Virus record (IMG/VR): IMGVR_UViG_3300048927_000038
Span: 1 to 39,922 of that record
DNA: 39,922 bases
Strand: one strand, 5' to 3'
Source: a virus
In this document: positions 19,786-24,850 of the stretch, piece after piece
Numbering within the stretch: the first letter of the stretch is position 1
Layout: the number at the start of each line of letters is the position of its first letter
Notes under the pieces: generated by a model
Databases searched by the model: none
Seen by the model: only the letters and a program-made list of their open reading frames with translations
What the model was told of the DNA's origin: nothing
Made by a program: the position numbers and the translations under genes

Positions 19786-20082
19786 TTACTCCTGTTCACT
19801 GGCCTCTGCGGCCATCTTCAGATACTGATCCGGGCAGTGCGTCATGACGCGCTGAAACAGAACCAGCGCCAGGTTGCGCTGCCCTTCGTTGAATGCGGTA
19901 ATGTGCGGCTCTACGTTGAAGCAGGTGCCGAACACCTGACCTTTCTCCAGAATCGACCAGATGACCCGGCGGCCCTGCTCGCTGCCCATGACAAACTGGA
20001 TGTCGTCGATATCGCGCTGGGCCAGAAGCTCCTGTTTGGCTTCCAGCTCCGCTTTGCGATCTTCATCGTCGATAGACGTCAT
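19786..20082 (-). CDS. Conserved small head-region protein (Bbp19-like)
   Basis: 98 residues with 'FVMGSEQGRRVIWSILEKGQVF' and 'AFNEGQRNLALVLFQRVM', a small helical domain known from BPP-1-type head gene clusters. It overlaps the portal stop by 4 bp and sits before the scaffold. Exact role not known; position suggests prohead assembly. Confidence 0.65.
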   Translation of the reverse strand: MTSIDDEDRKAELEAKQELLAQRDIDDIQFVMGSEQGRRVIWSILEKGQVFGTCFNVEPHITAFNEGQRNLALVLFQRVMTHCPDQYLKMAAEASEQE

Positions 20083-21749
20083 TGCTGCGCCGCTCCTGCT
20101 GCGTTAGTGAGAGCAGTAAGCGCGCTTGGGTCAGTTGTCTGCGTCTCGCTGAGTGTCTTGGCACCCTGAGCAGCTGTCTGGCCCATAGCCATTGCCTGTG
20201 CGGCCTGCTGCTGTTTGGCGCGCTCTTCGCGAATGCCCTGCACCTGCTCCTGCGGGACGATGACTGTCGGCGATACGCCGGACATTTCGGAGAACGCGTC
20301 GATAGCCTGATCCACGTCGAGCTTGTCGAGCGCTTCAGGTTTGAACTGTGCGAGTTGGCCGATAAAGCCAACGGTCTGAGACAGGCTGGTGAGCCCGATA
20401 GATTTCTGCGCCTGCGCCATCACGGAGATGTACTCGATGCGAAGCGGCATGCCCTGCATAACTTCAGGCGGCGGCGGCAGCATGTTCTTGCGTGCCATGA
20501 TGGAGAACACGCGGTCGATAAGCGGGTTGAGAGCCTCATCGTTCAGGCGCTCCAGCACAGGGCCGAGCATCAGCAGCTTCTCTTCCTTCATCTCGATAAC
20601 TGCTTCCACCGGCATTGAGCGGGTGTTGATGTTCTGCAGCATCATGAAGAGGTCGACGAAATAGGCGCTGTTGATGGTCTGGCGAGTATCCTGAATGTCA
20701 GCCAGCAGGTCTGCGGTATTCGGGTTGACCAGATAAGCAGGTTTGAAACCGTCCTGACCACTCAGCACATCGAGATAGGTCACGTCACCGGGCAGCAGCG
20801 AGACGCGCTGATTCTTCAGCGACGTCGGCGCTACCATCGGCGGATTTGTGGCTTTGTCGATCAGCTGAGCTTTACGCTTCTGCTCAACCTGCAGGGCTTT
20901 AACCTGACCGAGTGCCAGCATGCCAGGGCAGGAGGATGCGTAAACGTCCTCTCCGTTAACTTCCCAGCGCGGCGCCAGGATCGGGAATTCATCGAAACCG
21001 GATTCACGCAACAGCTTGTCGGAGTCGCCGCCGGTCTCGAAATAGACAGAGCGGAATGGCTTGTTCTTGCTGTCCATCTTTCCGCTGTCGCGGTTGATGT
21101 TTGGTGTGATGCAGTGGTTAACCTCGATCCAGTTTTCATACGTGCCGCTTTCCCACTGGCTCTTCACGGACGAGCTCACGTTGTCCAGACCAAACTCCTG
21201 CACCAGCTGGCGCACGGTCATGGAGAACTGCCGGAAGGAGGTGTCGACGCTACCGCGCGGGCTGTTCGCCAGGTAGTAGCTGCCAATCGGGAAAGGCATC
21301 GTGCGGATCACGTCCTGTTCATCTTCGAGCACGGCCATGGCGGCTGTGCCGAATGTGCCCAGGCTGGCATACATAACAGGCAGAGACTGGTACAGATTCG
21401 ACTTGTTGAACACTTCGTTCATGCGGCGCTGCACGACTTCAAGCCAGATCTTAACCGGGCCGTAATCCATCATGTCAGGGTCAGGCGTTGCCAACTTGAA
21501 CCACGGGCGGGCCGGGCTGGTGATTCCTGACATCATGCCGCTGGACAGAATGCGCTGAGCCATTGAGCCGGTAGGGTCAACAATCTTGGTGCTACGGCGG
21601 TCGCCGCGGTTAACGTCAGACGTCAGGAAGCGGGAACCGCGCGGATTGATAAAGTCGCTCAGGTCGCGCCAGTGCGGCTCGAACGTTGTGCGCTCGCTCT
21701 TCAGCTGTGCGAGCTGCTTCAGCAGTCGCTCTTTTTCGGTTTCCGCCAT
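20079..21749 (-). CDS. Portal / head-tail connector protein
   Basis: 556 residues of the podoviral head-tail connector family. The N-terminal 'LAQLKSERTTFEPHWRDLSDFINPR' and 'GSMAQRILSSGMMSGITSPARPWF' are hallmark stretches, and the C-terminus is a Gln/Ala-rich helix fitting the barrel. It forms the dodecameric DNA entry ring that binds TerL during packaging and tubular A afterwards. It is preceded by a 68-residue gene and followed by the Bbp19-like gene. Confidence 0.88.
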   Translation of the reverse strand: MAETEKERLLKQLAQLKSERTTFEPHWRDLSDFINPRGSRFLTSDVNRGDRRSTKIVDPTGSMAQRILSSGMMSGITSPARPWFKLATPDPDMMDYGPVKIWLEVVQRRMNEVFNKSNLYQSLPVMYASLGTFGTAAMAVLEDEQDVIRTMPFPIGSYYLANSPRGSVDTSFRQFSMTVRQLVQEFGLDNVSSSVKSQWESGTYENWIEVNHCITPNINRDSGKMDSKNKPFRSVYFETGGDSDKLLRESGFDEFPILAPRWEVNGEDVYASSCPGMLALGQVKALQVEQKRKAQLIDKATNPPMVAPTSLKNQRVSLLPGDVTYLDVLSGQDGFKPAYLVNPNTADLLADIQDTRQTINSAYFVDLFMMLQNINTRSMPVEAVIEMKEEKLLMLGPVLERLNDEALNPLIDRVFSIMARKNMLPPPPEVMQGMPLRIEYISVMAQAQKSIGLTSLSQTVGFIGQLAQFKPEALDKLDVDQAIDAFSEMSGVSPTVIVPQEQVQGIREERAKQQQAAQAMAMGQTAAQGAKTLSETQTTDPSALTALTNAAGAAQQ

Positions 21750-21970: not shown

Positions 21971-22038
21971 AGCGATAACCCCCCACACGATTAAATTATT
22001 ACCAATTTAACCATATACGGATTATTTTACGTAGTGTA

Positions 22039-22075
22039 TTGACATAATGCTGTGCAATTATTACCCTTCAGGTAA
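22039..22075 (+). promoter_or_regulatory. Repressible promoter of the noncoding-RNA cassette
   Basis: TTGACA (22039-22044) overlaps an extended -10-like TGACATAAT (22040-22048). The perfect operator TTACCCTTCAGGTAA (22061-22075) lies immediately downstream. If the extended -10 is used, transcription starts near 22055 and runs rightward into the operator; if TTGACA is a -35, the -10 (about 22062) lies inside it. Either way repressor binding would block the promoter in the lysogen. Promoter choice is inference. Confidence 0.55.
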
Positions 22076-22341
22076 CACACCATGAAAGCGCACTTCGATA
22101 TCAGTTCTGTGAGGTCTTGTCGCTAAATCAAAACTGGTGAGTGCGCTTCCAGGTGTGAGCAGTACGGCATATGGCACATGTGTCGCATCGGTCTGGCGGG
22201 GTCCTTGATGCTACTTCCCCTGAGCAGGTAGCCGGAATGTGCAAGTCAGTGTTTCTGTATGCACGGACATGACGACTCACCATCGTGGCGATACGGTGTG
22301 ACACCTCGGAAGAGACGAGGCCATAACAGGTAAGAGCACTG

Positions 22342-22387
22342 CGCGCCTGACGAGTCCATTAGGGACGAAACGCATTAGCGTCGCGCG
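22342..22387 (+). ncRNA. Hammerhead ribozyme, type I topology
   Basis: All core elements are present and ordered. Stem I is CGCGC (22342-22346) with GCGCG (22383-22387). The core CTGACGA is at 22347-22353. Stem II is GTCC/GGAC (22354-57/22363-66) with loop ATTAG. GAAA is at 22367-22370. Stem III is A-CGC/GCG-T (22370-73/22378-81) with loop ATTA. Cleavage is predicted after C 22382 (GUC). Stem I is the open one, making it type I; after a G/G mismatch it may extend by ACT/AGT (22338-40/22389-91). Self-cleavage would split the RNA into about 330-nt and 480-nt parts. Confidence 0.92.
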
Positions 22388-22724
22388 GAGTATCCCCAGC
22401 CGGGGAATAACTGGATACCAGGGGAGTCAACCCTAAGCGCATTTACGAGTGTGCTTAGGGCGTGGGTCGGCAAAGACTCCCTGTGCAGCCGACATCTGGC
22501 CCGGCAACTAACAGTGCTCTTTCCGTTGTGGTGAATGCGTAGGCTGATACGCGACCGATGTATAAACAGCGCCCATGGCAATCCGTAATCAATCGGAGCC
22601 TCAAGACAGTGTCACTGGTGGTGCGGGCGCTCCAACCAGTAAGCCGGATTCTCAGCCCGGCCACCACAACCCAATCACGCCTTAGGACCGTGATACGGCA
22701 GTACCAGGCAATGCGTGTAGTTTT

Positions 22725-22764
22725 GGCGGTGGCAGTGCTCCCACTTCTGACCACCGCCCTTTTT
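22725..22764 (+). terminator. Intrinsic terminator or terminal hairpin within the RNA
   Basis: GGCGGTGG (22725-22732) pairs perfectly with CCACCGCC (22751-22758), with an inner AGTG/CACT stem, followed by CTTTTTAC. It is oriented for plus-strand transcription; its reverse complement lacks a T-run of similar quality. It may end part of the transcripts, or be an internal domain since further structure follows. Confidence 0.6.
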
Positions 22765-22842
22765 ACAGCAGAACGCCATTCCGATGACGTTGCGCTGTAA
22801 ACCCTGCATCACCCGCCAAGGAAGGCACTCCGTTGATTATTC

Positions 22843-22867
22843 GCCCGGTTCGTCCGGGCATTTTTTT
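22843..22867 (+). terminator. Intrinsic terminator of the ncRNA, directly before the small gene
   Basis: GCCCGG (22843-22848), loop TTCGT, CCGGGC (22854-22859), A, then seven T (22861-22867). It is strongly plus-oriented; the minus direction has no T-run, so late mRNA can pass. The ribosome binding site AAGGTG of the next gene begins right at the end of the T-run, so that gene is expressed only by read-through. Confidence 0.85.
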
Positions 22868-22879
22868 AAGGTGATAACC

Positions 22880-23284
22880 ATGAAGACCGTAGAGATATTG
22901 GCAAAGCAACTTAACTCGTGGCCAGCTGATACAACTGGCATTTTTATGTCTCCTGATACCGGTGCATTCTTCGGGTGGAGAGTTGGATTTGAGAATCCTC
23001 AAAGCATTTGTGCAGTATCCTTATCCGGATTCCAGCCTGCTGATGATGCTGGCACTGATGTCACCGAATGTGATTTTCGCGAAGAGAAAACCAGACTTTC
23101 CAGCATCCCGCTCGCCTCGGGCATCAATCAGCCATCAGACGAACAATTACGGAAAGAGAATCTCTACCACACCAAATTGCAGTGCCTGGCTGAGGTGCTT
23201 GGTAAACAGTCATTCATTGACAAAAATTCAGCCAACAATGCAGCAGAAGCGATCAACGCAGCATTCGATAAAATTACTTTCTAA
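22880..23284 (+). CDS. Uncharacterised 134-aa phage protein in the antisense cassette
   Basis: Start at ATG 22880 with AAGGTG 7 bp upstream; the longer open frame from 22784 would run through the terminator and RNA and is rejected. The N-terminus 'MKTVEILAKQLNSWPADTTG' resembles the opening of many small accessory phage proteins, including the one at 37822 in this prophage. The C-terminal part (KLQCLAEVLGK...NNAAEAINAAFDKITF) is helical. It is transcribed opposite to terL and portal, between two intrinsic terminators, in the position of a moron. Function unknown. Confidence 0.7.
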   Translation: MKTVEILAKQLNSWPADTTGIFMSPDTGAFFGWRVGFENPQSICAVSLSGFQPADDAGTDVTECDFREEKTRLSSIPLASGINQPSDEQLRKENLYHTKLQCLAEVLGKQSFIDKNSANNAAEAINAAFDKITF

Positions 23285-23374: not shown

Positions 23375-24850
23375 TTACTTCCACGGATCGTAATCGGTTA
23401 CCGCCTTGCCCTGCTGGCTTTCCTGCCCAGGGATGCGCAGGCGCTTCGTAACCGGGAAAGCAAACGTCAGCAGCAGCGCGTCACCCTTACCAGGTGAGCG
23501 GCCCAAGCGCTCTTTGATATCTTCCTTCGGCTCAATGACGATCTTGCCGTCTACTCTCACTTTGTACTCTGCCGATGAAAGGTCATCAGCCGTCTCCTGG
23601 TCATCCAGCGCGCCGCCGAGTTTCAGCCACGTTTTGCAACTGTTGAACATCTCGCCGCGCTTGTTGAGCATCTGCGGGTCGGTAGAGCCGCCGCCGAACG
23701 GTATTAACTGCCACGTCCGGCCCCAGCCGTCACCGATGGACTTCAGCCCGGTACCGTAGCCAAAGTCGATGAATACCGCGTCAGCCTGGTACTGGTCTTC
23801 GAAGTCGGCGATGCGCTTCGCCATAATCAGATCGTCGGTGGTCTTGTTTCCGGTCCAGAGCACTTTGCTGTGTAGCCCCTGGCGCAGGTATATCACCGCG
23901 TCATCCACGCCTGAATATGCCGGGTCGACGCCTATAATCACCGGGGCGTGCGCCACCTGCGCAGCGGTCACTACGCGCTTCATTGCCTCATCGGTGAGGC
24001 CGGTCGGGATAAACTGCAACTCAGACGCGTCAGGGAAGATACCGCGCACACGGACCTTCACGAAGTCGCTGTCTTCGCCGTAGTCATCCACCCATTTCTG
24101 CAGCTGCTGTTTGTTCGTGCCTTCGACAGTACGGCTGTCAATCTGTGCGCACTTCCAGCGGTGCTTGTATTTGCGGAAGCACTCGCGGAAGCGCCCGGTG
24201 TTACGCGTCGGGTTCCCGAACGCCACCCAGATGATTTCGGTGTCCTCATCGGTCAGCGCACCTTCGGCAACCTCCCACACCAGATCGGCAATGTTGGAGG
24301 CTTCGTCGAATACCACGATGATGCGTTTGCGCTCATTGTGCAGGCCGGCGAATGCCTCTGTGTTGTGTTCAGACCACGGGATTGCGTCAGCGCGCCAGCG
24401 TTTATCGTGACCCGGATCGTTGCTGTACATCGCCGTTGCGGTGCAGGTGAACCACTCTTTCGTTATGGACAGGTTCGACCATTTGATGATTTCCGGCCAG
24501 GTCTTGGTGCGCAGCTGGTTGTCGGTGTTGGCGGTCACCACCACCTTGCAGTCCTCGCAGGTGTCCATTCCCCACTTAATCAGCATTGAGATGAATGCAG
24601 ATTTACCGATACCGTGGCCTGATGCGCGGGCAATCATGATTGGCTGATAACGAGTTGCAGGGTTTTGCAGGTGATCGCGTATCTCACGGAATCCGTCAGC
24701 CTGCCAGTTACGCGGCCCGGTGGCATGCGCCAGCTCCGTACCCTCCTCGCCCCACGGGAACGCATAAAGCGCATAGCCCAGCGGGTCATACGTGAAGGAT
24801 GCGATATCCTCGACGAGCTGTTCTTCCGGCGACATGGCTGCTGCTGTCAT
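23375..24850 (-). CDS. Terminase large subunit
   Basis: 491 residues. ATPase: Walker A GHGIGKS (78-84) and Walker B IIVVFDEAS (Asp182, Glu183). RNase H-like nuclease: GVDPAYSG (Asp309), IDFGYGTG (Asp362) and GKGDALL (Asp457). All expected acidic residues are present, so it should be an active packaging motor and headful or cos-cleaving nuclease. The GC-rich start region overlaps the small-subunit gene by 4 bp. The long spacing to the next late gene (21970) is caused by the inserted antisense RNA cassette. Confidence 0.92.
   Translation of the reverse strand: MTAAAMSPEEQLVEDIASFTYDPLGYALYAFPWGEEGTELAHATGPRNWQADGFREIRDHLQNPATRYQPIMIARASGHGIGKSAFISMLIKWGMDTCEDCKVVVTANTDNQLRTKTWPEIIKWSNLSITKEWFTCTATAMYSNDPGHDKRWRADAIPWSEHNTEAFAGLHNERKRIIVVFDEASNIADLVWEVAEGALTDEDTEIIWVAFGNPTRNTGRFRECFRKYKHRWKCAQIDSRTVEGTNKQQLQKWVDDYGEDSDFVKVRVRGIFPDASELQFIPTGLTDEAMKRVVTAAQVAHAPVIIGVDPAYSGVDDAVIYLRQGLHSKVLWTGNKTTDDLIMAKRIADFEDQYQADAVFIDFGYGTGLKSIGDGWGRTWQLIPFGGGSTDPQMLNKRGEMFNSCKTWLKLGGALDDQETADDLSSAEYKVRVDGKIVIEPKEDIKERLGRSPGKGDALLLTFAFPVTKRLRIPGQESQQGKAVTDYDPWK

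Follow-up and report, generated by a model that had tools for sequence, protein, structure and literature searches.

A type I hammerhead ribozyme at a fixed joint of a circularly permuted double-pseudoknot RNA of phages

The RNA locus and its hammerhead

The window (the whole 39,922-nucleotide stretch of viral DNA analysed, IMG/VR record IMGVR_UViG_3300048927_000038) derives from an epsilon15-like phage. Between its portal and terminase genes lie the following features:

20079-21749, minus strand: portal gene
22038-22867, plus strand: putative RNA locus of about 800 nt, from a TTGACA-containing upstream block to a terminator-like hairpin
22332-22341, plus strand: 5' strand of a slot-closing stem (AAGAGCACTG), complementary to 22512-22521 over 10 bp and present in the fold
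22342-22387, plus strand: complete type I hammerhead ribozyme
22383-22511, plus strand: double-pseudoknot RNA domain, circularly permuted
22512-22521, plus strand: 3' strand of the slot-closing stem (CAGTGCTCTT), pairing with 22332-22341
22843-22867, plus strand: terminator-like hairpin with a T run, a terminator-like site
22880-23284, plus strand: Gp49-family gene, just 3' of the RNA terminator-like hairpin
23375-24850, minus strand: terminase gene

In related records, the flanking genes carry the labels portal or head-to-tail connector, terminase and Gp49-family gene. With its Gp49-family gene set between portal and terminase genes of the opposite strand, the region resembles an insert of RNA plus gene within the late operon. 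The hammerhead is intergenic, and the stretch containing it ends with its own terminator-like hairpin ahead of the rightward Gp49-family gene. A preliminary description of this DNA had placed the ribozyme antisense to the packaging/portal operon. It does lie on the strand opposite portal and terminase, but it is antisense to no gene, and the label holds only if the operon is transcribed through the hammerhead.

Both ends of the 800-nt locus are conserved in most of 80 relatives collected among viral contigs by their portal genes, and its upstream part is matched by all 80. Upstream of the locus, the block 21984-22075 is very strongly conserved in the relatives and contains a repeated ATTATTACC together with TTGACA; it is probably a promoter or operator. 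Since a promoter scan of the window reported no site at the TTGACA block near 22038, a promoter there is no more than suggested, by visual match. As none of the 80 portal relatives carries a hammerhead, the ribozyme is not a feature of the epsilon15-like family. The same slot houses other RNAs in these relatives, including tRNA-Arg(TCT) in 18 of the 80 (ARAGORN), and phage BUCT554 has a tRNA-like fragment there; ARAGORN found no tRNA in the window. The stem 22332-22341/22512-22521 closes a slot in the middle of the locus whose content can be swapped; the stem also flanks the ribozyme-containing cassette in lambdoid, epsilon15-like and T7-like phages. The strands AAGAGCACTG and CAGTGCTCTT, as well as the next stem (GTTGTGGT...ACCACAAC), resemble acceptor stems of decayed tRNAs (window positions 22332-22680, loci L202 and L213), and the slot region holds a pseudo tRNA-Gly in L213 and a T-arm-like piece in L202. 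With these remnants, the locus as a whole may represent a tRNA array that has degenerated and had inserts swapped into it.

The hammerhead itself reads as follows, all on the plus strand:

22342-22346 with 22383-22387: stem I, 5 bp, open
22347-22353: core CUGACGA
22354-22357 with 22363-22366: stem II, 4 bp, loop AUUAG
22367-22370: core GAAA
A22370-U22381 plus three further pairs: stem III, 4 bp, loop AUUA
C22382: position H17, not G (UH being 22381-22382)
22382/22383: cleavage site predicted by sequence reading

The defining segments of a type I hammerhead (CUGANGA, GAAA and UH) are thus all present in order, by sequence reading and by descriptor, and three stems of 5, 4 and 4 bp surround the core with stem I open, by descriptor and in the folds. 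Re-reading the sequence reproduced exactly the coordinates, core, stems, loops and predicted cut that had been given in the preliminary description, and its assignment to a type I hammerhead within a larger structured RNA of an epsilon15-like phage is shared here. The Rfam family Hammerhead_1 (RF00163, clan CL00010) matches the element end to end with 24.7 bits (E 0.0029 when 1.4 kb was compared with all 4227 families, E 1.9e-5 for the single family over the 39.9-kb record). The covariance-model search proposed earlier therefore returned a full-length match, although one below the gathering score of 34, which is why a scan at the curated Rfam thresholds reports nothing for this element. That score is a curated reporting cutoff and imposes no structural requirement on a hammerhead.

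A strict descriptor requiring stems of at least 5, 4 and 4 bp found a single site in the window; it had no match in 1.48 Mb of sequence (both strands) from the loci of the 80 relatives or in 870 Mb of first-order Markov sequence. Relaxed to 4/3/3, it found 14 sites in the same 870 Mb. The earlier judgement that a chance origin is very unlikely is borne out, and a chance match is rejected on the absence of strict matches in 870 Mb of random sequence. The three stems appear in both minimum-energy and centroid folds of 66-nt, 190-nt and 731-nt contexts. The stability of the 66-nt element alone is not unusual (z -1.4), while that of the 190-nt cassette is (z -4.0).

The double-pseudoknot domain and its hammerheads

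The hammerhead is the 5' part of a cassette of about 170 nt, the remainder of which (22383-22511) is a conserved double-pseudoknot RNA that starts at the predicted cleavage site and had been overlooked in the preliminary description. Its elements in the window, all on the plus strand, are:

22390-22418: hairpin 1, stem 22390-22395/22413-22418
22399-22404: strand B (GCCGGG) in the hairpin 1 loop, pairing with strand B' at 22500-22505
22405-22412: conserved GAAUAACU in the hairpin 1 loop
22421-22428: strand A of pseudoknot A, pairing with 22475-22482
22431-22460: P0, here a hairpin (22431-22438/22453-22460) and in unpermuted members the outer closing helix
22466-22493: hairpin 2, stem 22466-22471/22488-22493
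22475-22482: strand A' in the hairpin 2 loop, pairing with strand A
22500-22505: strand B' (CCCGGC) of pseudoknot B, pairing with 22399-22404

Because B pairs with B' and A with A', each half of the domain is a hairpin with a tail, and its loop grips the tail of the other half. When the loop motif GGAGT...GGGGAATAACTG was used as an exact pattern against viral contigs, at least 120 matches were obtained; among the matches listed, 91 distinct members could be parsed, nearly all from phage contigs. The order GUGG, hairpin 2, AUCU, strand B', joint, CGYGGA, hairpin 1 and strand A is canonical and occurs in 72 of these members. The other 19 are permuted like the window, whose order is a circular permutation of the commoner hairpin 2, joint, hairpin 1 arrangement. 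In the permuted members, P0 is a hairpin linking strand A to GUGG. The permuted order is a genuine circular permutation of a single fold.

Four helices of the domain are supported by covariation in 68 non-redundant members. Pairing was measured in 68-69 non-redundant members against controls in which partners were shuffled among sequences or strands were slid. Hairpin 1 is 99.8% paired (75% shuffled, at most 45% slid), hairpin 2 97.8% (68% and at most 49%) and pseudoknot B 99.3% (84% and at most 53%). For pseudoknot A, the mean longest helix is 7.8 bp compared with 4.6 bp after shuffling, and 63 different loop-strand sequences occur in 68 members. P0 averages 8.97 bp in the 72 canonical members, compared with 5.55 bp when shuffled. 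Compensatory changes are numerous throughout the domain helices, with four pair types at several positions. Shuffling leaves shared ancestry in these comparisons, and the strong support indicated for the helices comes from the range of pair types and the collapse of pairing on sliding. The segments GUGG, AUCU, CGYGGAGU and GAAUAACU are conserved and unpaired.

The family was found in phages or genomes of Enterobacteria, Actinobacteria, Burkholderia, Pseudomonas and Bacillota. A pattern scan of bacterial genomes gave 119 hits, of which 10 proved on inspection to contain the module; the rest were chance hits in which the hairpin or flanking motifs were missing. At gathering score, Rfam reported tRNAs only and no family for the domain in 14 module loci, and at E up to 10 it returned tRNA, hammerhead and weak matches taken as chance, again with no domain family, for two modules. 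Every phage record found carrying the domain is without an annotation of it as RNA.

A hammerhead occupies the joint before CGYGGAGU in 76 of the 91 members (57/72 canonical, 19/19 permuted), as counted by a parser that admits a non-Watson-Crick 10.1-11.1 pair; where present in the family, it is always at this same joint. Its core CUGANGA is nearly universal, U16.1 is found in all, and H17 is C, A or U, never G. Across 75 parsed hammerheads, stem I is 94.7% paired, compared with 78.0% after shuffling, and covaries (for example GCGC/GCGC, ACGG/CCGU, GCGG/CCGC and ACGC/GCGU), although in L203, one of the relatives, stem I contains a mismatch. The sequences of stems II and III differ freely between members with their pairing kept, and the loops also vary. 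Mycobacterium phage Gaia has the variant core UUGAUAA, that is, a U3/A8 exchange, which Perreault and colleagues report to be active and to covary naturally (PMC3088659). Within the 19 distinct permuted relatives, CUGANGA, GAAA and UH are constant, position 7 and loops II and III vary, and stems II and III compensate, which is the opposite of a core drifting within conserved surroundings.

The remaining 15 of the 72 canonical members have a short joint (4-26 nt) or one in which no ribozyme is recognizable, and they nevertheless keep the 3' strand of stem I. The domain is thus useful even when there is no cleavage, and the ribozyme builds upon a conserved segment.

Distribution and association with tRNA genes

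With positions 22325-22535 as the query, 15 complete E. coli genomes out of 5426 proved to carry the cassette at full length, with 95-97% identity. Three lambdoid examples that were examined have it between the Q antiterminator and holin genes, and in one further example it is inside an epsilon15-like prophage. The T7-like Enterobacter phage SDFMU_EhYP carries it between capsid and tail tubular genes, Pectobacterium and Dickeya phages carry a version about 78% identical directly before tRNA-Met, and in Arthrobacter and Mycobacterium phages its pieces match in a different order. The hammerhead thus belongs to a mobile cassette.

The module lies within 300 nt of a tRNA in 27 of 82 viral loci, always on the same strand, compared with 9.4% for random positions in the same loci. 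The association thus holds for no more than roughly one locus in three, and many of the loci are fragments. Arrays of at least 10 tRNAs within 4 kb surround 7 of 15 members without a hammerhead and none of 55 with one (Fisher 5e-6, with kinship among members ignored). In these arrays, the module fills the gap between two tRNAs, for instance in L236, L265 and L332, so that tRNA processing could supply the module ends. In the annotated records looked at, the module has no constant protein neighbour, which, together with the co-occurrence with tRNAs, points to an RNA working on its own.

Other type I hammerheads were seen directly 5' of phage tRNAs (L183 near 8443, L187 near 6921 and L134 near 1504), with stem I built using the 5' strand of the acceptor stem. 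Their predicted cuts fall exactly at +1 of tRNA-Tyr (L183, L187) and at -1 of tRNA-His (L134). Bacterial tRNA-His needs G-1, and the predicted cut in L134 would leave it in place. Phages therefore seem to let hammerheads take the place of RNase P at some RNA 5' ends. An exact hammerhead pattern with stem II GUCC/GGAC gave at least 120 matches in viral contigs (L082-L201). Several of these contigs contain 2-5 copies, which frequently lie shortly before likely start codons, and some copies are spaced through a block (L091, L115, L165, L171, L177).

Interpretation and relation to known systems

We propose, with a probability of roughly 0.6, that the type I hammerhead is active and provides a small phage RNA with a built-in processing site. 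The proposal builds on what the sequences themselves document, namely the ribozyme, the domain and its helices, the fixed joint, the permutation and the tRNA association. As the plus-strand transcript emerges, the ribozyme would cut between 22382 and 22383 and so generate a compact RNA of about 130 nt (22383-22511) with a double pseudoknot and a 5'-OH end (GCGCGGAGU...). The processed RNA would consist of two hairpin-plus-tail halves with their loops paired to each other's tails. The cut would always fall at one joint, before CGYGGAGU. In the permuted form seen in the window, it would free the 5' end of the whole domain from its leader, whereas in the unpermuted form it would nick the domain, the halves being held by A/A', B/B' and P0. 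Simple release does not cover all cases, because the cut splits the domain in unpermuted members; the constancy of the joint in both topologies suggests that the nick itself, beyond release, matters. The existence of members without a hammerhead shows that cleavage is not obligatory throughout the family. The product would presumably be stable and work in trans as a small RNA produced along with phage tRNAs; as a guess, it might take part in translation or counter host defences directed at tRNAs. The wider proposal, of an undescribed and widespread class of phage small RNA with a pseudo-symmetric double pseudoknot, two natural circular permutations, a functionally needed hammerhead nick at a fixed joint, co-expression with tRNAs and action in trans on host translation or tRNA biology, is put forward tentatively, at somewhat less than even odds.

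Several other explanations were weighed against this proposal. The placement of modules between tRNAs, the predicted cuts of other phage hammerheads exactly at tRNA 5' ends and the record of hammerhead-interspersed phage guide-RNA arrays (PMC13142463) would fit a ribozyme that separates tRNAs or neighbouring transcripts, with the pseudoknot as a stabilizing cap or spacer (for example an exonuclease block) that has no function in trans. Most loci, however, have no tRNA nearby, the loop sequences are conserved beyond what a cap would need, and the unpermuted cut falls inside the domain rather than between domain and tRNA, so we consider this explanation unlikely. A little less probable still is a natural allosteric ribozyme, in which the domain senses a ligand or protein through its conserved unpaired bases and toggles cleavage. 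The unpaired GUGG, AUCU, CGYGGAGU and GAAUAACU do resemble a binding site, and the unpermuted hammerhead sits inside a loop of pseudoknot B, where folding of the domain would bring the strands of stem I together. Yet the 15 unpermuted members in which the domain stands without a hammerhead indicate that it has its own use, the annotated records looked at show no constant downstream gene to regulate, and in the window a terminator-like hairpin precedes the next gene.

It appears very improbable that the hammerhead of the window phage is a passenger of the cassette, a relic that does not cleave in vivo. Its RF00163 score under the Rfam cutoff would be in keeping with a relic, as would the lack in the permuted form of an evident peripheral loop I to make the tertiary contact by which natural type I hammerheads are known to be accelerated; against this stand the constant core and compensated stems of the 19 permuted relatives and the intact recurrence of the element in lambdoid, T7-like and epsilon15-like phages. 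The preferred reading thus remains that of a processing site built into a small phage RNA.

Hammerheads in intergenic regions of phages and prophages, proposed to process phage transcripts, were reported by Perreault et al. in 2011 (PMC3088659), so that the ribozyme as such is not new. In the available text of that report, the hammerheads flank genes and no pseudoknot domain is described; the window hammerhead is instead embedded at a fixed joint of a conserved RNA. Kinship with the PaP3 and Bcep176 hammerheads was considered and rejected, as the pseudoknot module is absent from both phage examples. The window element shares with RF00163 the CUGANGA...GAAA...UH core, three stems and type I order, and differs in scoring under the gathering cutoff and in sitting in a separate conserved RNA. 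In the accessible part of the work on HRIMA motifs and non-circular hammerhead permutations (PMC10085705), no similar RNA was recognized. The HDV-like theta ribozymes, which are self-cleaving and linked to phage tRNAs, belong to another ribozyme class, and the text describing them is without hammerheads (PMC10879173). VIPR guide-RNA arrays are phage-borne with interspersed hammerheads (PMC13142463). Their vrRNAs have alternating GGY/NN motifs, whereas no such repeat is seen in the window domain. The GOLLD and ROOL RNAs are often phage-borne and near tRNAs. These large ornate RNAs (PMC12286853) are, like the window domain, structured RNAs without an assigned function, but they comprise several hundred nt and form oligomers, whereas the window domain has about 130 nt and no Rfam match. 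Inspection of the sequences of the stable RNAs C and D of phage T4 (rnaC/rnaD) showed no motif in common with GGAGU...GGGGAAUAACUG. The prophage small RNA svsR, which limits phage infection, was rejected as a counterpart on account of its different location at the 3' end of cI.

Searches of the open-access literature by topic or by the loop sequence GGGGAAUAACUG returned no description of the domain. What is new here is a hammerhead built into an RNA domain that is apparently without earlier description in open-access papers. It points to an apparently undescribed class of RNA that tends to sit beside tRNA genes, and it offers a structured RNA that has been circularly permuted in nature with its joint retained. 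Phage hammerheads are numerous and mostly without an assigned purpose; here the hammerhead is tied to a definite partner RNA with a fixed cut site, and the fixed partner and joint give it a testable job, that of setting or nicking the end of a small RNA.
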